Origin: Dermatophagoides farinae
Lineage: Eukaryota; Arthropoda; Arachnida; Sarcoptiformes; Pyroglyphidae
Length of the DNA stretch: 64,000 bases
Assembly: GCF_024713945.1 (NCBI RefSeq)
Contig: NC_134679.1
Location: 1,245,001-1,309,000, forward strand
Reading direction: 5' to 3'
The position numbers were made by a program, and so were the translations under genes. Each line of letters opens with the position of its first letter. Positions within the stretch are counted from its first letter, which is position 1. Positions 2,218 through 42,973 of the stretch are shown here, piece by piece. Below the pieces are notes generated by a model that was not told where the DNA came from, did not search any database, and saw only the letters and a program-made list of their open reading frames with translations.

Positions 2218-5200
2218 CTATAACATTTCAGCAATATCAGCCAATGATTTACGTTTAGGCCTTTCTTGTGGTTGTTTCTTTGCAAATGATAAGAAAATTT
2301 GTTCCAATGTTGTATCACCAACTTGATAATCTTCTAGCTGTAGATTTGATTTTGCCTCTTCCATAGCACGAAATAATGATGCCCAAGTAACATCGGATTC
2401 CGGTGGAATATGATAGAATAATAATGTTTGATGAATATCCCGTAATACGGCACTTGGTAAACGATCTTCAATAGATTCCTGTACCTGATCTAGATAAAGA
2501 TCATTTTCAGCAACAATATCTGGATTTAATTTGATGATTAATGAATAACCTTGACCGAATTTTGTACGTAAATATTGTGTTGAACCAATACATTCAAAAT
2601 GACCGGCAGCCATAATGGCAATACGATCACATAATGCTTCACATTCATCCATTGAATGTGATGTTAGAATGATACTACAACCGGAACCATATTGAATATC
2701 TGAAATGGCTACCCACATTTTACGACGTGCAACAGGATCTACACCGGATGTTGGTTCATCCAACAATACCACTGGTGGTGCACCGATCAATGCCATTGCC
2801 AATGATAATTTACGTTTATTACCACCGGAATAATTTCGACACATTCGTGCAGCATGTGCTTGCAGGTCAACTTTTTTAATCAAACGATTCACTTCTAATT
2901 TGATAGCATCATCTGGAATACCACGTAATCGGCCATACAATTGTAATGTTTCAAATGAATTAAGACGATCGAGTAATGCATCAAATTGTGGACAATAACC
3001 AATTTGTGCTTGATATTCTTGAGTGGATGAAAATAGATCAAAACCACCAGCCCATGAATTACCACGTGTCAATGATAGATCACCGGTTAACATACGAAAA
3101 GTGGTCGTTTTACCGGCACCATTTATGCCCAATAGGCCGAAAAATTGTTCCTTACTAACGGCAAAACTAAGCTGATCAACAGCACGGAAATTACCATTGG
3201 AATAGATTTTTGTTAGATTATGAACACATAATGCTTCTTGATCCATTTTTTTGGCTGCTAAAATTTTTTCAGTTCTTGCACGTTCTTCTAAAACATCTTT
3301 ATCGGTGAACGCTGTACCATGACCCATACGTTCCAATTTAAATGTTTTTGAACTTTTCGATACTTTCATTACATCTTTTGTACCACGATAAAAGCTACGG
3401 AAACGTTTTGAAACAGATTCACGAATCTTTTTGTTATCCAACAATGCTAATAAACTCCAATAAAGAATGGCATCCAAAATGAGCATAAAAATTTCATCAT
3501 TAACACCGAGCCAATTAAACCAGAAAAATGGATGTTGAAATATACATTCATTACCACAGACCTCTATAAAAATTTTAGTGGAAAAAAATACATTAAAATG
3601 TAAACAGTAAACAATAATAAAATCAAATCAATTTACCATCACAACAACGTTCTGGTTTAAGAATTTTCAACTCTTCCAATTCCGGATTGGTTCGTTGAGA
3701 TGCAGCATAAATACCGCAAAGAATGGCACGTAATGATGCTTGAAATTGTGCACAAATCAAACGTGTTGAATCTAATGTAAACAATTTTTGTAGTCCTAAA
3801 ATCAATGCCACAACCGGTGAAAGTCTTGTGAACCACATGCCAGCATAGAATAGGCCACGAATTTCGGCACTTAATTTTTCTTCAAGAATCGTTTCAAAAA
3901 ATGTTGCTATAACACCCATACCGATTCCGGTAATGACCGAAATCAGACATAATATACCGAATGCTGTTGATGGTTTACGGAATATTAACGATGCAACATA
4001 TGCAAATGGTATGGCTGCCAAACCGAATGTTAAAAATAATGACATGAATGCCACTGTTTTTGTTTTCAAACAAATAAAAAAACAAAAATAAATTCGATTA
4101 GGATGAAAAAAAAATTCAAAAAAACAAAAAACTTACATGTTGATAATGGATTTGAGAAATAAAGACCATAACCAAAACTACGATCCCAAATCAATATCAA
4201 TGTAAACATTGCAACGAAATAACAAAAATATACGGTATAATCAAAGATAAAATTAGAAATCCAATATAACCGTACACTAAGACCGGTCATTAGCTGTAAA
4301 AGTTTTGCCTGAACAGAAAAAAAATTTACAATGATTATATTCAGATGGATTTCAGAAATAAAAATACATACCTTGGATATACGTTCATGTGTAGGAAACA
4401 ATACATAGAATGCAGCAATAAATGAAACGGAAAATGGAAAAAATATTCCATTATAAACACGACCAAAAAATGGTAGAAAAGCTGAATGTGGATTAAAATG
4501 TTCGAATGTAATTTGATCAAGGCTAATGCTAAAATTATCTGGATTATATGATGGACCACCATTTGCAACGGATAATGAATTTGCTTTCGATATCAATTTT
4601 TTCAATAATGCATTATACAATAAATTGATACTGATTGGTAATGAATGTGCTGCTTCACCATTGTACCATGCAAAATATAGCCAACGACGACGATAATATT
4701 CTGTGGATGCACCAATTAGCCATTTTTCACGATAAATATTTAAATCTCTTAGTGCAATGTCCAAAAGACGATCAGATGCTTGTGAATAATTTCGTGCCGG
4801 TGCCGTTGATGGTGGTGGTGTTGTTGGAACTCTTGATGATGATGAATGTGTAGTAGATTCAGCTTTATCTGGATAGAATTTATCCAAATATGCACCTTTA
4901 TTACGATTAGTATTTATTGATCGTATACCGAAAAATTGTGCCAAATTACGTGAATCATCCAATTGTACAAGTCCAAAGTGTTCATGACGAATTTCTTTTG
5001 CATAATAATTACGGAATGATATGTTATTACTTTTTTCTTGGTCAAAATATATGGCACGTAGATTATCATGTCCATAACCGGCTGCTTGTGTGTTGATTTC
5101 CATACTCCAATTTGGAAAACGATCAGTTGCATTGACAGTGGTTTCAATCAAACCAAGAATAGCCAGAATACAACCAATAGCAATGCCAAGTATGGGAACC

Positions 5201-8200
5201 ACCGTTTTTGTATTACGTTTTATATCATGTACACGTTTCGATAATAATGCTTTCAATTTCAATATGGTCAATGAACGTCCAGGTGGAACTTTTGGTGTTT
5301 GTCGTTGAATAATATCACCAATATTATTATTATAAAGTGGACGATCAGTACTAAAACTACCGGCACGGAATGCATTATTATTGAATACATCTAGATGATT
5401 GTTTGTTGTTTTGAATGCGCCCGGCGCACCATCACCATTTGTTTTATTCTGTTGTTGTGTTGCATATATTGAAATAACGGAATTAGCACGACTAGTACGT
5501 GCTACGGCCAATGTTTGTAGATCATGATTCATAGATGCTTCGGCTGCTTCTAATGATTTTGATTTGGTATTTTCCAATTCAATAACCTTTAGGAATACAT
5601 CATCCATCGATGATACGTTCACACCACATGAATATACACCCAATTCTTGTTTATCATTTTCCAATTTTTCAAAAAAATCCGGTAATTTATTCGTATCTTC
5701 GGGTGCTATAGTGAATTTGATCTCATTACCGGTTTCATTTTCCAATTTCGAATCGGGTAAATTTTCACGGACAAATTTTTGGAAATATTTTGAATCAAAT
5801 TTATCCGATTTAGCAATACGAAGATGATAGCCACCAGCATAGACACGTTTAAGAAATATGGATGAACCACAACAAACAACACGACCACGTGACATTATAG
5901 CGATACGATCACCAAGTACATCGGCTTCTTCCATCCAATGAGTGGATAACATGATAAGACGATCTTTACGGATAGATAGAAGAAAGTCCCATACACCACG
6001 ACGTGCTTCCGGATCTAACCCTGAGGTAGGTTCATCGAGAATCAATATTTTCGTATTATTTATCATGGCCATTCCAAGTGAAAGACGTCGTTTCATTCCA
6101 CCGGATAAATCTTTACTCAATACACGACGTTTAAATGTTAGACCAAGTTGTTCAAGTACATGTGATACTTCCATTGAAACACGTTTTGGTGGACAATTTT
6201 TAACAACGGCAAACAAACGAAGATGTTCCTCGCATGTCAATTCATCATAAAGAACATCAAATTGTGGACATAAACCCATTCGACGTCGAGAAAATTCAGG
6301 ATTTTTGATAGCATCAGTTCCGTCTACTTTTAATTCACCACTTGTTGGTTGATAAAGACCAGTAAGCATCGAAGCAAATGTTGTTTTACCAGCACCATTA
6401 TGACCCAATAAAACAGTGATTTGTCCATGATAAACATTCAATGTAACATCTTTGACGGCTACTTTAACGGCAAATTCTTTTCGCAATCCTTTTGCCTGGA
6501 TACCGACACGAAGTTTTTTCGGTTCTGCTTCGAAATATTTTTTACGATTTTCTTCCGGATCTGTTTCTTCATAAGCTGGATTATCGTAACCATCATCATC
6601 ACCGCCTTGGTATTTTTCGTTTGATTGTCGTTTATAGACACAATAAACATCAATATACCAGACGATTACACCGTAAAATAAACAGGAGAAAATCAATGCA
6701 CCAGCAACACGTAATACGCTTAGATATTTATACAATGGTAATACTCGGAATATATTCGACCAATGAGCTGAATATTGTGCATATTGTGATACAAATGTTC
6801 CATATGCAGCATATACTTCTGATTCGACAAATAATTCATTGCTCACTTTAAGTGCATAATTTGGAACCAATGCACAAATGATTAGATGAGCCCATTCTGG
6901 TATATGAATCAAACCGGATGTTTCGGTGAGACCGGCACGTTTTTCAAACAACATTGCCACCACTTCTTGGATGGAAAGCCACATAATAAAACCGATAATC
7001 ATAGCATTGGTTGGTTTTTTAAAAAACACCGCAATAGCCATTGCAAACATTATCGATGCCGATGAATAAAGAATCAATAAACAGAATACTAATGATGTTG
7101 ATGCACCTTTTAGCTGTGCTTCACTGCCAACACAAAACATCAATGTTAAAATTGCCGATTGTACAACCATGACAATGAATGTATTGGCAAAACAGCTACT
7201 ATAATAGATGAAATCTTTTAATCCCATTAAACGAAGCATTGCACGAGCTCGATTGACTTTTTCATCAACAATTCCTTTATTTTTTTTTATGAGAGAAGAA
7301 AAAGAAAAACAGTTAAATTTAATATTAAAAATGATATGATTTAACGAACCTTTAATGAGCAAAACAATCATGACGACAAAACCCAATATGGTACAATATT
7401 CCATTGTCAATTGAATTGTATTCAATTTGGTTGCACCAGGAAAAAAACGTGATATAATTGATACCTGAAATCTTGGATGTCTAATATATTTTGGATATGG
7501 AAAACGTTGTGCACGAATATCACGCATATCCGGTATTGGAAATGGCACATCAGTACCATTTTGATAAAGATATTCACTCAATAATTGAAGATAGGCATAA
7601 TTAACCAATGATTGGATGGCGACAAAATTTTTCTTTATATAATGATCTGCATTTGGAAATGGGCCGAAATCCTGTTTTTTTGGATAGGCATCATGTTGTA
7701 ATTCAAAATCTCGTACACGTAATGTGTAACGAAGATTCTGTGGTACCATTGTATCGTTACCGATATCGATAGTCGGTTCCGGTGTATCACTGAATTCATC
7801 ATTAAAATGAAATATCACACCAGCGATTGTTTCATTTTCCTGTAAACCTAACAGCAATTTTTCCACCGAATCTGATATCGTAAATGGTATTTCGGATTTT
7901 ATTATATCATCCAATTCTTCTTCAGATTCAACGCCACGGCAATCAATTTTTTCATTTAATCTTGACATTAGATTCACTGTAAATTCATTTACAGGTGTAT
8001 ACAATACTGTATAATATGAACGTAAAGATTTTTCCACTGGTACTGGACGATAACGGATTGGTTCTTCAACACTAGTACCACCTTTACCACCAGAATTAGC
8101 TATTATCGATAATGATGCAATGAATATTGGTAATGCTAATTCCAGAAAAGTCCATATATAATGACGTTTACGAATGATGAAGGATTTCCATAGGAGAATC

Positions 8201-8232
8201 CCAAATTGTCTGACTGGTAATGAGTAAGCCAT
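2218..8232 (-). CDS. ABCA: ABC transporter subfamily A (ABCA), full transporter
   Basis: Five exons on the minus strand: 8232-7350, 7274-4372, 4308-4137, 4053-3637 and 3563-2218, joined by GT-AG introns of 75, 63, 83 and 73 bp. The spliced frame gives 1906 residues. It starts with the typical ABCA N-terminus (RQFGILLWKSF), then a first membrane helix and a large extracellular loop. NBD1 has Walker A GHNGAGKTT near 583, signature LSGGMKRRLS near 683, Walker B ILILDEPTSGLDP near 701 and H-loop STHWMEEAD. A second membrane domain with its own large loop follows. NBD2 has GINGAGKTTT near 1604, YSGGNKRKLS near 1701, VVLLDEPTSGVDP near 1721 and H-loop TSHSMDE. The C-terminus carries the ABCA-type DTTLEQIFLSFA element. 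ABCA proteins move lipids across membranes using ATP. Both ATP sites look intact. Length is between ABCA3 and ABCA1; I favour an ABCA3-like protein but cannot fix orthology. Confidence 0.95.
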
Positions 8233-9765
8233 TGTAAATTGAATTATTTAATTATGATGATGATGATGATGATGATGATTAGAATTGGACAAGATGAGAT
8301 TCAAATAGTAGAAAAAAAATACATATAAAAGAAAAAAAAAGTGAACGCACGATTCAACGATTAACGATTGTTGTGATCATGAGCCAAATTAATTTGTTTC
8401 AACAAAAAACAAAACAAAAAAAATAAATAATGAATGACTAAAAAAACGTTGAATGTTTTGAACTTTGTTTATTTGTTGTTGTTCAATGTTGTTTTTGTTG
8501 TTGTCGTTAATGTTGACCGAATGATGATGATGTTTTAATGAATGAAAATGGATAAAAATAATGATCTAAAAGGGAATAAACAGAAAAAAAATTAATTTCA
8601 AATTAAATTTAAATTTTTAAAAATTTTGCATTTATAATGTAACCACAACAAAATCACTCTGATAATGAATGTTAATATTGATGATGATGATTATCGACAA
8701 ATCAGATCTGATATGGTGAAAACAAAAAACAAAAACAAAAAAGAATTCTTGGTCGAGGTCACACACACACACAGTCGCAGGAAGGAAATTCGTTTTTTTT
8801 CTGGTATTTTTCAAACTAAATTAACGTCTGTCTTTTTTCTCGAAATTGACAAAAAGGTCATCAATCCTGTCAAGTGTGAGTGATTGCATGAAAACGGAAG
8901 GCGACAAACAAAAAAAAATAATTTTTCAAGTGAATTTTGAAAAATTTCCACACACACACACACACAAAAATCAATCGATCGATAATCGATGTTAAAAATA
9001 AAACTCACCATAGAGGAAAAAAAATTCTCCTAAATCCGGTCACTTTTTTTTGTATAACAAACAAAAAAAACACATTTATCAATTCGATCGAACGATTTAT
9101 CCAGCTGATGATGAACCACACACAAATAGCGTGAACAATATTTTAAAATTTGAAAACAAAAAAAATTTTATTTCACTAAACAATCAACAAGTGATGACCA
9201 AAAATAAACAAACAAAATTTAATAAATAAAATCAATATCACCATCGATCGTCGATTGCCATTAACACACACACACACACACACACAAACAAACTCAATCG
9301 ATATATGAATGAAAGATAGAAGAATCACCAAAATGATCATTCAAAATACGGTACGATAAATGCAATAAATAATCATCATATATCTATCTGTATGGTGTTG
9401 TCTGAATGAAATTGTTAAAAGTAAATTGAATGGGAAGTAGAAAAAAAAGAAGAAGAAGAAAAAGAAAAAAAAAGGCGAAACATTTTCTTCAACAGACCAC
9501 TTGTGTGATGCTCCATTCATATAAATCATCAAAAATTATTGTAGGAATATTGCTGCTGATGTTGCTGCTAACCTGTTGATGCTAACCTGCAGACCTGTTG
9601 ATGATCATATGGGCATATTTTATGTATACATCTGTATTGTTTTTATGAATTTTTTTTTTTTTTTTTTTTGCAAAAACCAATCAACCAACCAATCGAATAC
9701 AAAATCCATCAATTGCAAAGAAGAAAATTGTAGAATCACAAGCATGAAAAAAGGTGTTAATTGTT

Positions 9766-28759: not shown

Positions 28760-31755
28760 ATGGCATCCAATCGAAATTCATTCAATCGTTCATCATTGAA
28801 CATTACATCATCATCAGTTTCACAACAACAGCAGCAGCTGCAACAACAACAATCATATAATACAGTACATCCGGTATCATCACCACCTCCACCACCGGTA
28901 TATCAACCACCACAACCAAGTTGGTGGAATACCGGTCTAGCTGGAATTGGTGGTGGCCGTCGTAATTCATATGTGAATGAAGATGTTGAAGATCCATACC
29001 AACAACAACAACAACAACAACAATCAGTACCAAGTATTCAAATTGATCAATCGAATGGTTATATAAATCCATCATCACCAACACATTCTGGTTCTTCACC
29101 AACAAATCAATCATATCATCGTCCACGTGCAAATTCATCAATAACAGCTGCACGTAATAAATTACGTATTATGGCAATGTTAGATGATGTACGAAAAAAA
29201 CGTGAACTTCGTGATCGTCGTAAATCGGATATAATGGCCTATCTTGATGATCTGATCGTACCGGATGATCCAGCAATGGCTAATGCTGCAGCTGGTGCAT
29301 TGAAACTTTATCGTAGAAGATTTTCAATATATCAATTTTTAAATCATCCATCAACAAGTACACCATGGTCAATTACGTATCATGTGATGGTTTTTGTTAT
29401 TGTATTTGTCTGTTTAATATTGACAATTTGTGCAACAATTCAACAGGCACCATTACAGGAAAAAGCAATAAAATCTGTTTATATGCTTGAAAAGGTTGTT
29501 GTTGTTTGGTTTAATATTGAATTCGGTTTAGGTCTTTGGTCTTGTGCTTGTAAAAAACGTTATCGTGGTCTAATGGGTAAAGTTCGTTATCTAACAATAC
29601 CATCCAGATTGATTGATTTTGTCATATTAAGTTTTACAACCATTGTATTGATTGTTAATCCAAGTAAAACTGGCCATGAAGTTTTTGTTGTATCAGCATT
29701 TCGTGGTTTTCATCGTTTTTTTCAAGTAGCACAAGTATTGACATTAAATCGTCCATTAAAACCATGGAAAGTGTTAGCATCGGTTATTTATGATCAACGT
29801 GAACAATTGTTTATTATTTATTATACTGAATTTATTGTTCTTTGTGTATTGGCTTATGTTGCATTTTTAGTTGAAAGAGATACAAATGATAATTTCAATA
29901 GTATTGCCGATGCTATGTGGTGGGCGGTTAGTATTTTGATTCTTATTTTGATTTTGATTCAGATTTTTTTTTCTCAATGCTTCTTCTTCTTCTTCTTCTT
30001 CTTTTTTTTCACCAAAAAAAAAAGATCGTTACACTTTCAACAGTAGGATATGGTGATCGTGTGCCGGTAAGTGAGATTTTTTTTTTTGAATCAAATTTCA
30101 TCAAGCTAGATAAAGACGAAACAAAGAAATGTCATTGTATTCTAGCAAAGTGAAAAGCAACAATTTGATAACAAACAAAAACAAACTAGAAAACAGACAA
30201 AAAAAAATTCGCATCCAAAACTAGCTGCAACCAGTTTTTATTGATGATTGAAAATTAACTTGATTCGATTTTTTTTTCGATTCGTTCCACACAGGTTACA
30301 TGGATTGGTAAAATCATTTCAACAATGTTCACAATATTAGGTGTAGCGATATTTGCATTGCCTGCCGGTATTATTGGCACTGGTTTAGCATTGAAAATTG
30401 AAGAAGTTGAACGGAATAACATACGTAATAGGAAAAAAGTTGCCGCAGCCATTCTTATACAGCGTGCATATCGTTCATGGAAAGCACATCGTACATATGA
30501 ATTGGTATCGAATTTTTTTCGTGAACGTCCAATGCAAATATATAAACAACATGATTATCTATCGATGGCACAAAAATTCATTGCACTAGTACAATTTTTG
30601 GCCGCATTGAATAAATTTCGTGAATTATTGCGACCAGTTGATTGGAAAACCGTCATGCAAAGCTATAGTGATGGTCAAACAGAAGTTTTATTACGTACAA
30701 AATTAGTACAACAATCAATTGAAGAATTATCACGTCGTGTTGAAATGACTGAAAATCGTGTGGCAAATATGTCAATGAAAATTGAAACCAAACAAAATAC
30801 ATTTGAAAGACGTATTGATCATATCAGACAATTGATGGAAAGTTGTCATAGACAATTATTAGCCAATCATTTATTGGTAGAATTATTACGTACAAATAAT
30901 CAACGTTATCATGTTAGTTCAACAATGACCACTGGTAGAAAACATACATCATCTACGGCATTATCAAATCGTGTCATTGGTGGTGGTCAACAACAACAAC
31001 AACAACAACAAACACCATTACAATCAACATTGAATTCGAAACAATCAATAATATTGAATCAACAAGCAGCAGCAACGGCAACAACAACAACAACAACAGT
31101 ACAGAATCGTTCGAAAACAACAACGGCGACAACAACAGCATCAAAATCACTTCAAAAAAATTCAATAACTCAAACATCTATAATCGATAATATTTCGAAT
31201 GAATCAAAGCAACCACCACCAACACCATCACTATTGAATCCGAATAAATCATCAAATAGTAATTTACCAAAATCAACAATAACTAGACCGAATCAATTGA
31301 ATTTGGAAAAATTAAAAAATCTTTATCCAATTGCATCATCCGGTAGTAATACAAGCATTGATGATGATGATAACACTGATAATGATGATGATGATGATGA
31401 TGATTTTTTTAAAACTACCACCACTACGACAACAACAACAACAACAACAGGTCAAACAGCTAATCAATCAAATAATCAAGGAATTAATCGAACATCGATG
31501 ATCAACACTACAAATAATATCGGCACACCAGCACCAGCAACACCAGTAATATCATCATCAGCTGGACCAATTATTTCCGTTCCATCACCATTATTTTCAT
31601 CACAACAACAACAACAACAGAATCGTCAATTAAATAATCATCAAATAATGTCACCATTATTGAATAATTATCATAATAATCAACAGCAACCAAATTTACA
31701 AATAAATCATCATCATCATCATGGTCAATATAGGCCAAGAAGAATGTCATTATAG
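28760..31755 (+). CDS. KCNQ: KCNQ-like voltage-gated potassium channel subunit (copy A)
   Basis: Three exons: 28760-29926, 30025-30066 (42 nt) and 30295-31755, giving 889 residues. After a Gln/Pro-rich N-terminus come S1 (about 206-228), S2 (236-262), S3 (287-302), S4 (AFRGFHRFFQVAQVLTLNR, 313-331), S5 (349-375), a pore helix ending WWA, the filter TVGYGD (395-400) on the 42-nt exon, and S6 with the PAG hinge (IFALPAGIIG). An IQ-type calmodulin site (ILIQRAYRSWKAH, near 455) and a helix-B-like segment (FLAALNKF ... VMQSYSDGQ, about 496-533) then match the KCNQ C-terminal layout, followed by a heptad-like region and a long Gln/Thr/Asn-rich tail. KCNQ channels form tetramers in the plasma membrane and set resting and M-type K+ currents. 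S4 has fewer basic residues than vertebrate KCNQ, so voltage gating may be altered. Family assignment is firm; orthology within KCNQ is open. Confidence 0.92.
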
Positions 31756-32124
31756 CGAATCATCATCATTATCATCATCACATTAATCTGTGGAATTTTT
31801 CTCAAAAATCGTATATCGACATCACCACGGTTTTTTGGTGCATTATTCTTAACCTTGATGTAATCGTCGCCATCATCATCATCATCATCATCATCATTAA
31901 TTTAGGCGCCAGACGGAAATTGATTCTTCTTTTTTTTTGATTTTTTCCGACATTAATTTATTGTGTGTGTGTGTACGTATGTTGTGATCAAATCAAATCG
32001 ATAATTGATTGCAATTATTTGTTGTTCAAAAATATTAAAATTATCATTAAATTAATTAATGATTGAATGGTTATTGCACTAAAATGAAAAATATTTTGTT
32101 ATCATATTGCTGCAGTGATTTCGA

Positions 32125-32130
32125 AATAAA
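32125..32130 (+). terminator. AATAAA signal of KCNQ-like copy A
   Basis: Canonical hexamer 370 bp after the copy A stop codon, on the same strand. It would end this transcript short of the convergent neighbour. Confidence 0.5.
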
Positions 32131-32266
32131 ATCTGAAGTAGTTGATAGTTGATTACAATCGAATGACTGAGTGTTAAGTGTTGTCACTATCGATATTAAC
32201 AATCGATAATAGACATTGACCTTTTTTTTGATGACAGCAAACAAAACAATTTTTTTTTTTTGATAA

Positions 32267-32272
32267 TTTATT
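32267..32272 (-). terminator. AATAAA signal of KCNQ-like copy B
   Basis: Reads AATAAA on the minus strand about 41 bp past the stop codon of copy B. Together with the plus-strand signal at 32125 it leaves roughly 100 bp between the two predicted transcript ends. Confidence 0.55.
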
Positions 32273-32312
32273 GAAATTTTTTTTTCTCATTTTGATGACA
32301 GAATTATTCAAG

Positions 32313-34198
32313 TTAACAATTTAATAATAATTCTTTTAAAAATCTATTCTGTTCACTTAGTTTTTGTTCCATTTGTTCAAGATTTATTTCAAGAATTTCC
32401 AATGTTGATAAATTATTATTATTATTATTATTCGAGGTTTGTTCACTGGTGGTTGATCGATGATGGCCAACCATTTGTTCTAATTGTTGATGAATTTTTT
32501 GTAATATTTCCAATGTATCATTATTTTTAGTCTTATATGATTTCATTGCTGGACGTGGATCCGTATCTGGTATTACGACTGAACAAAATTTTCGTCGTGC
32601 ACGATTCAACAATAATAATTGTATGAATTGTGTAGCGAAAAATTGTTTACGATTCTCAAGTACATGATCAATTTTTTCCCATAATGTTCGATGTGTTCGT
32701 ACTGGTATCGAATTTTCTTGTCCAGTTCGACGCATATGTTCTAACCATACGACCATTTCAAATTGTCGTTGTCGATGTGCAAAACGCCATGCCCGTTGTA
32801 TCAAAGTTGATGCTAACATTTTACGGATTTTACGTTTACGACTCTCTTCCTGTTCTGTTACTTTTAATGCAACAGATGTTGCAATCAAACCACTTGGTAT
32901 GGCAAACAATGCTAAAGCGATCCAAATTCCAATGCCCATTAATGCTTGGCCAGCATAAGTGATTGGAGAAAAATCACCAAAACCAACGGTCAATAATGTA
33001 ATTGATGTTGCATATAATGAATCCATAAGATTACCAATTTTTGTATCCTTTTTATTATGATCATGATCAGGATTTGTTTCGGCTAAAAATATTCCATATG
33101 CCACCAGAAATATTATCAATAAAACCAGATAAAACATGGCGAATAATAAATGTCCACCATCATGAAAAACTTCCAACAGGATACGCCATGGACTATCACG
33201 TTTTTGTACACTAGTCCATTGTATTACATTGAATAGACGATGTAAACCACGTAACATGATTAATGCATAAAGATCTTGTGTAAAATCAATGGGTAATTGT
33301 GGCCATACAAAACAACTTGTGGATAGTATGCCACCAATAACCAATAATATATCGAAAAGATGTGATATACGGCCAAAAAAATATTTAAAAATCCATTGTG
33401 TTACATTAAGATTTTTATATGGAACTTTTGCACGTGATGACCAAAATCGTAATGAAAATTCCATAATGAATTGTATGAAAATTATTAATTCAAAATATGA
33501 TTTAAGACGATGATCTTTTTCATAACGAAAACATTTTTCTTCCCACGTTGTTCTCGACGTGAACATTATCAGACCAAGATAATATAATAAAATGATTGCA
33601 ATGACAAAATGATAATAATATGACCAAATATTAGTTGGATAATTGAGAAAATTGTACACACAAATTCTTGCCCTATAGCTCCATGGTTTTTGTTTGATTT
33701 CTTCTTTATTTTTGGCCGTTTCAATTGCTTTCAATTCAATTTTTGTTCGTGCATCCAATTGTTCGGGTAATTGTACTAATGAATGTAATCTTTTTGTAAT
33801 TGGTTTCTGTAATGTTGTTGGTGGTGATAATGTTTGCATACTACTTGATTCAATCGATTCTGTATTCAAGCTAGATTTTTGATCCAATTTACCTAAAAAA
33901 ATTTTGAAAATTATTTATTTTTTTTCAAAAAAAAAAAAAAAATTTTCCACTTACCACCGATACTGATACTACTATTTGGTCGTTTATTATGATGACGATT
34001 AAACAAACGATGTGGTGTTAATTCTGAAATCGATGTTACTGTCATTTCATTTGCAAAGTGGTTGTCGGTGGTAATAATGTCATGATTATGATCAACATTC
34101 TGTTCATTTTGGTGTTGATCTTCAACGAAGACACCAATGTCTTCGTCATCATTATCATCATTTATGGATTCAATTTCAACAACGTTATCTGGATCCAT
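32313..34198 (-). CDS. KCNQ: KCNQ-like potassium channel subunit (copy B, divergent)
   Basis: Two exons, 34198-33955 and 33892-32313, separated by a 62-bp intron; 607 residues. The first exon encodes an acidic N-terminus. S1-S6 follow: S1 near 172-192, S2 near 214-232, S3 near 258-275, S4 (LRGLHRLFNVIQWTSVQKR) near 295-313, S5 near 330-352. The pore reads TVGFGD (383-388) instead of the usual YG-containing filter, and the S6 hinge is PSG (LFAIPSGLI), not PAG. A conserved IQ-like site (STLIQRAWRF) lies near 443-452. The helix-B region is only weakly recognisable, and the C-terminus has a poly-Asn run and a predicted coiled coil (LEQMEQKLSEQNRFLKELL). S1-S6 match KCNQ and the copy A neighbour. 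The altered filter and hinge suggest changed gating or selectivity, or an auxiliary subunit; that is inference. Confidence 0.88.
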
Positions 34199-39779: not shown

Positions 39780-42700
39780 ATGACGATGAATTTTGCTGCT
39801 TCATCATCGAAAAACCAATCAAGACTTGTTCAAATTATTAAAACACAAAATGATATTAACGATTGTGTCGCAGATCATAATGTTGGCCATCAACATCATC
39901 ATTCATCATCATCATCGTCGTCGTCGTTGTCGTCCTCCTCGGTTAATAATCCCGGTTTAGTAACATTTTTACAAATTGATCCACATCAACAGAACCAACA
40001 GAATTTATTACAAACACAGCCATTTGAATCAATGAACAATTCGATAACAACAAGTCTACAACAACAATCAACAGGTCGTTTTCCATATAATGTTCATCAA
40101 CGACGTTCATTATCATCGCAAATGATGTTGTCCGCTATCAATCAACAACAATTACAGCAGCCACAGCAACCGCAACAATTATTGAATCAACAGGAAAATT
40201 ATTCAACATTAAATTCATCGACCATCCAATTTGGACCAATATCGAATCATCAATCGATCCAATCGATTGTTCAACAACAACAACAACGATTCAATCAAAG
40301 ACAATTGACAAAAGGTGCAGCTATGATGATGATGATGAATCCACATCATAATCATCACCATCATCAACATTTAATGATGGCAAATCAACAACAGCATGAT
40401 CCATCGATGACAAGTATTCATCCACCACCTGGTTTTGGTCAAACAACATCGACAACATCCGGTATCAATGTAAATCCAAGGCAACCACAAATATTACCGC
40501 CATCTATGCAACAGATTCCTAAAAATCCGGAAAAATGTTTAAATCGAATGTTATCAACATTAGCGGTACAATTTCATCAACAACAACAACAGCAGCAGCA
40601 GCAGCAGCAACAACAACAAATATCGATTACTCAACGGTGTCCACAACCATCATCTGCAAATAATCAACAATCTGTGATATATGATTTTGTCAATCCAAAT
40701 TTCAATCCATCATCATCAACATCAACAACAACAACAACAACAGGAAATAATAATGGCCAATGTGGTAATTATAATCATTCGATTAATAATTGGCCACCAC
40801 CTCAATCATTAACACCAACGATTGGTCAAGGTCAAGGACAAGGACAGCCACGAATTAATCAGCCAATGATGACTAGATTATTTTGTCCACATTCATATTA
40901 TTTTCAACAACAACAACGATTAACAACAATGTTACAGCAACAGCAACAGCAACAAATACAGCCGCCTACAAATGCAACAACACCGATACAATGTTCAACT
41001 TTAGCAAATTATATTGAACGAATTGGTGCCGGTGGTGGTGATGATGAAATGAATATTCATTCATTACAACAATATTCCAATCAGAATAATCTATCATTGA
41101 ATCCGAATGCAATGGATTTTTTTCCTAACCAACAACAGCAGCAGCAGCAGCAATCTGATTTGGAAAAAGCATCAAATTTTATCAATTCATTGAATCATTT
41201 TGAAACAAACAAATGTAATGATGCCACAAATGAACGAGTGGATGATAATTCGCCAATAGAAAAACCACGACGTCAAGTATCATTTATGGATGATTCACAA
41301 TTTTCTCATTCAAACGATATGGTTTGGAATGATTATGTTTCGAAATTGGTGAATGAAGAAAATGATGATAACGAGGACGATAATCCATCGAACAATCAAA
41401 TGAATATAAGCAAAGATGTTGAATCATTATTCGATGATGATAATGATAATTTTGGAGACATTAATACAATGAATCAATCAGCTGAAAATTTATTGCTCAT
41501 CAACAATGATGAAAAAAATGAAGAAAAAAAATCTAAAAAAATTTGTGAAATTGAACCAGATGAACAGATGAATCAACAGGTAATGATGGTATCGAAAGCA
41601 ACAAAACCGAAAATAGAATTAGAACCAGATAATAATAATGATTGTGATGATAATGATGATGAAGATGATGAAGAATTTGATTCAAAAATTTTGATTCATA
41701 GTCCCAATAACGAACCGTTGCCACAAATACGTGAAAGATGTGTATCATTGAGTACCGGTACAATGATGATGACAAATAGTCCAAAAATATCAAGTAAGTT
41801 GTCGAAGAATTTTTTTTCCCCGAAAAAAAACTAACCAAAATTCCAATATGATAGATATGTTAACATGTCAACATTATAATCATCATCATCATCATCCTCA
41901 CCAACATCACCAACATCAACATCACCAACAACAACAACAACAACAACATAGACGTCGATCATCAATGGTGAGTCAATCGATTTTTAAATATTAAAATATA
42001 ACAATAATGATATATTTTCATATAGTCATCGAATGAATCAATTTTTTCAATGATATCGATATCATCACCACAATCATCTGGTCGTAATCGTGCCAATACC
42101 GTATCGGTAATTGGTGATAATCAATTACTATCATCAAAACGATTTATTAAATTTGATCGTTATAAAACGGAATTATGTATTTATAAATCAGAAATCGGTG
42201 AATGTCCATATGGTGATCAATGTTGTTTTGCACATGGAATCGATGAGATACGACCAAGACCATTGCATGATTGTAAAGAACGTACACAGCCATGTGAATC
42301 ATTTTCAAAGGATGTTTGTTATCGTGGTTCAAGTCGTTGCTGGTATCTTCATCCAAAACCGGAATTCAATCTGGATCGTTTACGTAATGATCTTCAACAT
42401 TGGTTATTTGATCATCAAAAATTTCAACCACATTTATTCATTGAAAATTCTGATGATTGGTTCGATGATGAATGGAATCCAATATTTCATGATCCAATTG
42501 AATATCAATCAATAATTGATCAACCATTCACCGATGAAGATGTTGTTGATTTTGGTGATCATGAACTTAATGAATATTTTGATTTTCATCGTAATTATTA
42601 TTCATTATTCAAGGAAATTCTCAAATCAATTTGTATGATTGAAAAGAAATCGGAAACAAATATAACACAACGGCAACAAGTTATGATGTTTGATGATGAT

Positions 42701-42973
42701 AGATCCATTGATAATAATCCAACATATTATAATTGGTCAAAAGCCAATACAACTGTACCGGATCATATAATACGTCATAGTTTTTATTCAATTCCTTCAT
42801 CACATTCATCAACAGTGCATCGATTCTGTGATAAAGAACCAGCATCATCAACAACAATAAAAAATCCGAATTTCAATAATGAAAATGATCAATTAATCAA
42901 TTCGAATGGATCAACACCAATGATTGGTGATGAATTATTGTTGTCTGAAATATCTCGTCTAAATTTAAACTAA
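39780..42973 (+). CDS. Gln-rich CCCH zinc-finger protein (TIS11/ZFP36-like first finger)
   Basis: Three exons: 39780-41793, 41855-41967 and 42026-42973 (introns 61 and 58 bp); 1024 residues. The first ATG after a candidate acceptor (39766) is taken as start ([10 protein letters not shown]). Exon 1 is Gln/Ser/Asn-rich with an acidic C-terminal part; exon 2 is almost only His and Gln. Exon 3 carries two CCCH fingers at about 750-810. The first, YKTELC...[11 protein letters not shown], is CX8CX5CX3H with the YKTELC lead-in of TIS11/tristetraprolin. The second, [22 protein letters not shown], is CX7CX6CX3H with a 19-residue linker. TIS11-type proteins bind AU-rich 3' UTRs and promote mRNA decay, so an RNA-binding regulator is likely. 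The changed second finger and large Gln-rich N-terminus mean the target may differ. An AATAAA lies at 43080-43085. Confidence 0.85.

Follow-up and report, generated by a model that had tools for sequence, protein, structure and literature searches.

Two neighbouring KCNQ-like genes with an altered S4

A stretch of 64,000 nucleotides from contig NC_134679.1 of the mite Dermatophagoides farinae (hereafter the window) was found to hold two intact neighbouring genes, A on the plus strand and B on the minus strand, that belong by sequence to the KCNQ family of potassium channels and carry a non-canonical voltage sensor. In both of them the S4 segment has no arginine at the positions R4 and R5 and has gained a histidine between R1 and R2. 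They belong to a set of nine divergent KCNQ-family genes of this genome, all devoid of arginine at R4, that accompany one canonical gene. By analogy with published mutants of human channels, the leading proposal, which we hold at about even odds, is that A and B would be K+ channels of KCNQ type whose gating charge is reduced and whose voltage dependence is weakened or right-shifted.

The genes lie tail to tail with 557 bases separating their stops. Gene A (28760-29926 + 30025-30066 + 30295-31755) has three exons and encodes 889 amino acids, and gene B (34198-33955 + 33892-32313) has two exons and encodes 607; all introns are GT-AG and internal stops are absent from both models. Exon 1 of A, identified by an open reading frame, its GT-AG junction and a match to KCNQ in the PDB, encodes the N-terminal region, S1 to S5 and the start of the pore helix. 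The selectivity filter TVGYGD (30040-30057) falls in exon 2, and exon 3 encodes S6, an IQ-type site (30451-30492, LIQRAYRSWKAHR), the helix B/C region and a low-complexity tail before the stop. In gene B, exon 1 (open reading frame, GT-AG junction in phase 1) encodes an acidic N-terminal region and exon 2 encodes S1 to S6 and the C-terminus up to the stop, with the filter TVGFGD at 32973-32990 and the IQ-type site at 32766-32804 (LIQRAWRFAHRQR). Both filters are written in K+-type letters, and the C-terminus of B has, judged by eye, a coiled-coil-like end.

The S4 segments read SAFRGFHRFFQVAQVLTLNRPLKPWK in A (29696-29770, plus strand) and IMLRGLHRLFNVIQWTSVQKRDSPWR in B (33183-33257, minus strand). 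At the columns of KCNQ1 R228, R231, Q234, R237, H240 and R243, gene A has R, R, Q, Q, T and R, and gene B has R, R, N, Q, S and K. Specifically, R1 (29702-29704 in A; 33251-33249 in B) is followed by the extra His (29711-29713; 33242-33240), which stands in an RGxHR motif directly before R2 (29714-29716; 33239-33237), the position of R231. HMMER and MAFFT agreed in leaving the KCNQ partner one residue short opposite this His, so the insertion that an earlier note on this DNA had proposed for both genes was recovered by two alignment methods. The same note had proposed a Gln at a conserved S4 arginine, and this was also confirmed: the Gln (29732-29734; 33221-33219) aligns with KCNQ1 R237, i.e., R4. 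For the next basic site, R5, which is H240 in KCNQ1 and Arg in KCNQ2/4/5, the note was right about the Thr of A (29741-29743); B has Ser there (33212-33210), and the Trp/Thr claimed for it lie one or two residues off. Neither gene therefore has the canonical S4 set, which is R1, R2 and R4 in KCNQ1 or R1, R2, R4 and R5 in KCNQ2/4/5. Two AlphaFold models (mean predicted local distance difference test, pLDDT, of 64 and 71) had low confidence in S4 and thus do not tell in which register the extra residue lies.

Membership in the KCNQ family

The KCNQ-like identity and the IQ-type sites noted earlier for both genes were upheld. The spliced channel region of A matched human KCNQ4 in the PDB at 2.5e-70, against 5.5e-21 for the best non-KCNQ chain, and B matched KCNQ1 at 5e-25, against 7.1e-7. 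A fold search with the AlphaFold model of the A sensor returned KCNQ channels as all of its top 36 matches. The T1 domain (BTB_2) was not found by a Pfam scan of exon 1 of A and exon 2 of B, and none of the 12 places matching its profile PF02214 in the genome fell at any of the ten KCNQ loci described below. Downstream of the core, the helix B/C region of A reached 33.4 bits against the Pfam KCNQ_channel profile (PF03520, cut-off 25). B had no match reaching that cut-off, either in the Pfam search of the genome or in the Pfam scan of its exon 2, and a second phmmer stretch to the KCNQ1 C-terminus was weak (i-Evalue 8.6). Since B is matched by its core but not by PF03520, it is a KCNQ relative by core with an apparently diverged tail. 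The missing R4 and R5 weaken the case for canonical voltage sensing, not that for family descent.

A divergent set of KCNQ genes in the genome

The 62.4 Mb assembly of D. farinae, in 22 contigs, was searched with the Pfam family, A, B and three paralogues as queries. An NPC2-like exon in it agrees with the Der f 2 allergen chain 1ahk at 119 of 120 residues, ahead of Der p 2, as expected of D. farinae or a very near relative. At least ten KCNQ-family genes were recovered, one canonical and nine divergent, a count that is a lower bound because only the best candidates were scored by the search. Besides A and B, the divergent genes are P3 (L029), P4 (L030), P5 (L031), P6 (L032), P7 (L033), P8 (L034) and P9 (L042); the canonical gene is at locus L035. 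All nine divergent genes are open frames with GT-AG introns, although the start codons of P3 to P9 were not fixed and their models span from a stop or a chosen point to a stop. PF03520 was passed by 6 of the 10 genes (A, P3, P4, P5, P8 and the canonical gene); like B, the genes P6, P7 and P9 gave no match reaching its cut-off.

The canonical gene is divided over its core into at least seven exons, carries a full S4 (ALRGLRFFQILRMVRMDRR) and shares 61-66% identity with human KCNQ1/2/4/5. The nine divergent genes share 24-47% with the same human proteins (24-40% for A, B and P3 alone) and 21-48% among themselves, and each has at most two core introns, or none. The closest relative of A is P3, which sits 1.9 Mb from the pair and has, as A does, the ordinary TVGYGD filter and a PAG motif in S6.

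Arginine is present at R4 in 0/9 divergent genes versus 5/5 of the canonical sequences (the canonical mite gene and human KCNQ1/2/4/5). In its place there is Gln in six (A, B, P3, P4, P5, and P9), Lys in P6, His in P8 and Glu in P7, with the alignment at this column uncertain for P7 and P9 because about five residues are missing there. The R5 site is Ile in P3, a gap in P7 and P9, and Arg in P4, P5, P6 and P8. R1 is missing from P5, P6 and P8. By contrast with R4, three sensor residues were kept in 9/9 divergent genes: R2 and the equivalents, in KCNQ1 numbering, of the S2 Glu E170 and the S3 Asp D202. At the E160 position A, B and P3 have Glu, whereas the remaining six have Asp; A, B and P3 also retain the equivalent of F167, and the His insertion is limited to these three genes. 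After S4, the T247 position is Pro in six of the nine, the following Trp is kept in eight, and H258 is Gln in six; the canonical gene reads T, W and H at these positions. The basic or polar positions R190, R195 and H258 of KCNQ1 are kept in the canonical gene and changed in many of the nine.

Some members of the set showed peculiarities of their own. P9 (L042:2486-4231 on contig C9, minus strand of the locus) has the filter TVGYGN instead of TVGYGD, and its S4 is strongly reduced (LRGFRMIWFLQNRSVMIR). P7 (L033:3160-3769, contig C2) is short of about five mid-S4 residues and of the greater part of its S1-S2 loop, with its frame open. The canonical gene apparently has two alternative exons before S1, at L035:158-216 (LHNFLERPRGCSPMFYHIT) and L035:5156-5241 (VNNFFELPNGKLSISYHIM), and either could be joined in frame with the exon at 5547.

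Phylogeny and origin of the pair

Trees were built with human KCNQ1/2/4/5, with human KCNQ3 left out. The main tree had 14 rows and no outgroup, was unrooted, and was calculated after removal of the S4 columns. In this tree the nine divergent genes formed one side of a branch supported at 99/98, opposite the canonical mite gene and human KCNQ1/2/4/5. This agrees with the earlier suggestion that A and B belong to a divergent KCNQ branch, and the sole gene with a full S4 found in the genome lies outside that group. When another Kv channel of the genome (L036) was used as outgroup, the canonical and human KCNQs formed a clade (98/98) that the divergent subgroups joined in an open fork. For this reason we rely on the unrooted split and do not claim that the nine have a single origin in a rooted tree. 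The nine were attached next to the canonical mite gene with support of 81/82, and attachment to human KCNQ1 (approximately unbiased, AU, test, p 0.24) or to human KCNQ2/4/5 (AU p 0.33) cannot be told apart from it.

Within the divergent side, P7+P9 (100/100), P5+P6+P8 (98/97) and A+P3 (94/91) were recovered as subgroups. The grouping A+P3+B was present in the best 14-row tree at 57/0 and rose, in trees without P9, to 97/96 when P7 was removed and to 98/97 when both P6 and P7 were removed. One other best tree (no outgroup, S4 dropped) lacked it, but the AU test did not reject it there (p 0.28). The branch of B is long, and in that analysis the program gave a warning about B meeting P7.

The earlier note had explained the pair as a local inverted duplication. 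This origin is not supported, as A shares 48% identity with P3, its nearest relative at a distance of 1.9 Mb, and 30% with B. A and B were never sisters in a best tree; this arrangement costs 6.3 log-likelihood (lnL) units in the 14-row tree, and the AU test did not reject it in any of three trees (p 0.102, 0.107, and 0.089). The introns point the same way. A and P3 have a pore intron in common, at the same column and phase and a single codon away from where the canonical gene has one, and the core of B is intronless and so shares none with A. Elsewhere in the set, an intron at ALK|VQ or ALK|IQ is common to P4, P5 and P8 and lacking in the canonical gene. The canonical gene also lacks a phase-1 intron that interrupts the S1-S2 loop of both P4 and P8, with an intron of P9 one column away; and P7 and P9 share an intron after the filter, from which the second intron of A is one base off. 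This pattern is more in keeping with repeated duplication long ago than with a recent copying of A to B.

Predicted gating and alternative explanations

The published work on human channels gives the reference points for what these sensors may do. During S4 movement in KCNQ1, R1, R2 and R4 become successive partners of the S2 Glu, and charge swaps of E160 with R231 or with R237 arrest the sensor in the intermediate or the activated state, respectively (PMC7287213). KCNQ1 R237W moved V50 from -29 to +10 mV (about +39 mV) and lowered z from 2.5 to 1.6, H240W brought z down to 1.0, and R231W, at R2, made the channel constitutively open (PMC2275793). In Kv7.2, R207Q and R207W neutralise R4; R207W caused a depolarising shift and slowed activation, and R207Q caused loss of function through similar mechanisms, which was gone when the mutant was co-expressed with wild-type Kv7.2 and Kv7.3 (PMC3982104). 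The same changes reproduced in Kv7.4 gave a gating-pore current (PMC3982104).

A, B and P3 keep R1, R2 and the S2/S3 counter-charges and are without R4 and R5. The partners of the intermediate state (E160-R2) are thus present in these three genes, and those of the activated state (E160-R4) are not. As the Glu and R2 are kept, a closable sensor is likely. Such a sensor would most probably carry less gating charge and work mainly in the intermediate state, with opening requiring stronger depolarisation or more drive from lipid or calmodulin. The gene models, the S4 letters, the paralogue set and the tree grouping are observed here; weakened or shifted sensing can reasonably be inferred from the published R4 mutants. 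An extension of this reading, which we hold to be tentative and unlikely, is that a whole KCNQ branch would do without the fully activated sensor state (no Glu-R4 pair), gating from the intermediate state only with lipid and calmodulin as its main controls, with the wild-type mite channel bearing the residue that in human Kv7.2, as R207Q, is associated with nerve hyperexcitability.

Several points weigh against weakened sensing. The mutants were made in other backgrounds, and with only 24-40% identity of A, B and P3 to the human channels, compensation elsewhere in the protein is possible. The loss of the R207Q effect on co-expression means that a Gln at R4 can be mild in mixed channels (PMC3982104). 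Owing to their low S4 confidence, the AlphaFold models give no guide to the effect of the extra His on the helix register. B passes no KCNQ-specific C-terminal profile in the Pfam scans, and gating is read here from sequence.

A different explanation is that the products of the divergent genes are electrically silent or modifier subunits, which would reach the membrane but have an effect only when combined with the canonical KCNQ in mixed tetramers, whose voltage range they would change. Nine fast-diverging genes beside a single canonical one would suit such a role, as would the changes at R190, R195 and H258 and the coiled-coil-like end of B. However, A and P3 have retained an ordinary filter and PAG motif, and B, P6, P7 and P9 fall short of the C-terminal KCNQ_channel profile, the assembly of KCNQ channels being assigned to the C-terminal coiled coil (PMC9989356). 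We consider this explanation unlikely. A slightly less probable one is that voltage gating is essentially normal, with the extra His and other changes in the voltage-sensing domain compensating and the loss of R4 tolerated like Q3. The retention of R2 and of the E170 and D202 equivalents in 9/9 genes would agree with it, as would the fact that KCNQ sensors with Q3 already function minus one S4 charge and the disappearance of the R207Q effect in co-expression (PMC3982104). Yet A, B and P3 are without both R4 and R5, and single R4 substitutions alter gating in human Kv7.1 and Kv7.2 expressed alone (PMC2275793, PMC3982104).

Because a Gln at R4 is the R207Q change, for which a gating pore is described in Kv7.4 (PMC3982104), an uncharged R4 site might also make the voltage sensor itself leaky in the native channel, by way of a gating-pore (omega) current. 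This is very unlikely: a constitutive cation leak would be costly, A, B and P3 keep the E160, F167, E170 and D202 equivalents, and the path may be closed off by residues nearby. Finally, the long branches of B, P6 and P9, the failure of B, P6, P7 and P9 against the KCNQ_channel profile and the unfixed starts of P3 to P9 could be taken as signs of decaying pseudogenes or annotation artefacts. Intact frames and GT-AG splice sites throughout the nine, together with a filter and sensor acids kept despite pairwise identities of 21-48%, make this extremely improbable, and pseudogene status was rejected.

Comparison with known KCNQ channels

On the one hand, A and B resemble canonical KCNQ/Kv7 channels (human KCNQ1-5, Drosophila KCNQ) in S1 to S6, the K+ filter, the S2/S3 acids, R1, R2 and the IQ site, and A also in its helix B/C region. 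On the other hand, sequence comparison with human KCNQ1/2/4/5 sets them apart by the absence of Arg at R4 and R5, by the extra residue between R1 and R2, and by PW[KR] instead of TW[KR] after S4. The neutralised R4 is shared with human Kv7.2 R207Q/R207W and Kv7.1 R237W, and in R207Q the residue is the same. Unlike these mutations, the mite change is the fixed wild-type state of a paralogue set, and A, B and P3 combine it with the loss of R5 and the His insertion. KCNQ1 R231W is likewise a case of an altered S4 changing the gating mode of a KCNQ channel (PMC2275793), but R2, the residue concerned, is kept in 9/9 divergent mite genes. Several extra intron-poor copies per genome are also described for the intron-less expansion KCNQ3a-d of Hydra, a likeness by description only; the available part of that source mentions no altered S4 (PMC9989356).

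Drosophila has a single KCNQ gene (PMC3168433). The ten mite genes exceed any count shown in a table of cnidarians and three bilaterians, which lists five KCNQ genes for human, three for C. elegans, one for Drosophila and seven for Hydra (PMC9989356). No paper on mite KCNQ genes was found among those listed by full-text searches of open-licence papers, as assessed from titles and the opening of abstracts. KCNQ sensors have mostly been studied by mutating human channels; this genome offers nine natural variants without the R4 arginine together with a canonical control, and these could reveal if a KCNQ channel can function without the activated state of its sensor. The drug response of the divergent mite channels may also be unlike that of their human counterparts.

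Other observations

A scan of viral contigs with the KCNQ alignment returned 45 loci through one pore motif, none of which was used. Just upstream of P8, at C4:3795398-3795601, there is a stretch resembling group-2 allergens (E1_DerP2_DerF2), a weak match that is over the cut-off. Elsewhere in the window, open frames on the minus strand at 2218-8247 resemble an ABCA-type transporter, with Walker and signature motifs seen by eye, and an open frame at 42026-42973 contains a motif resembling a CCCH zinc finger.

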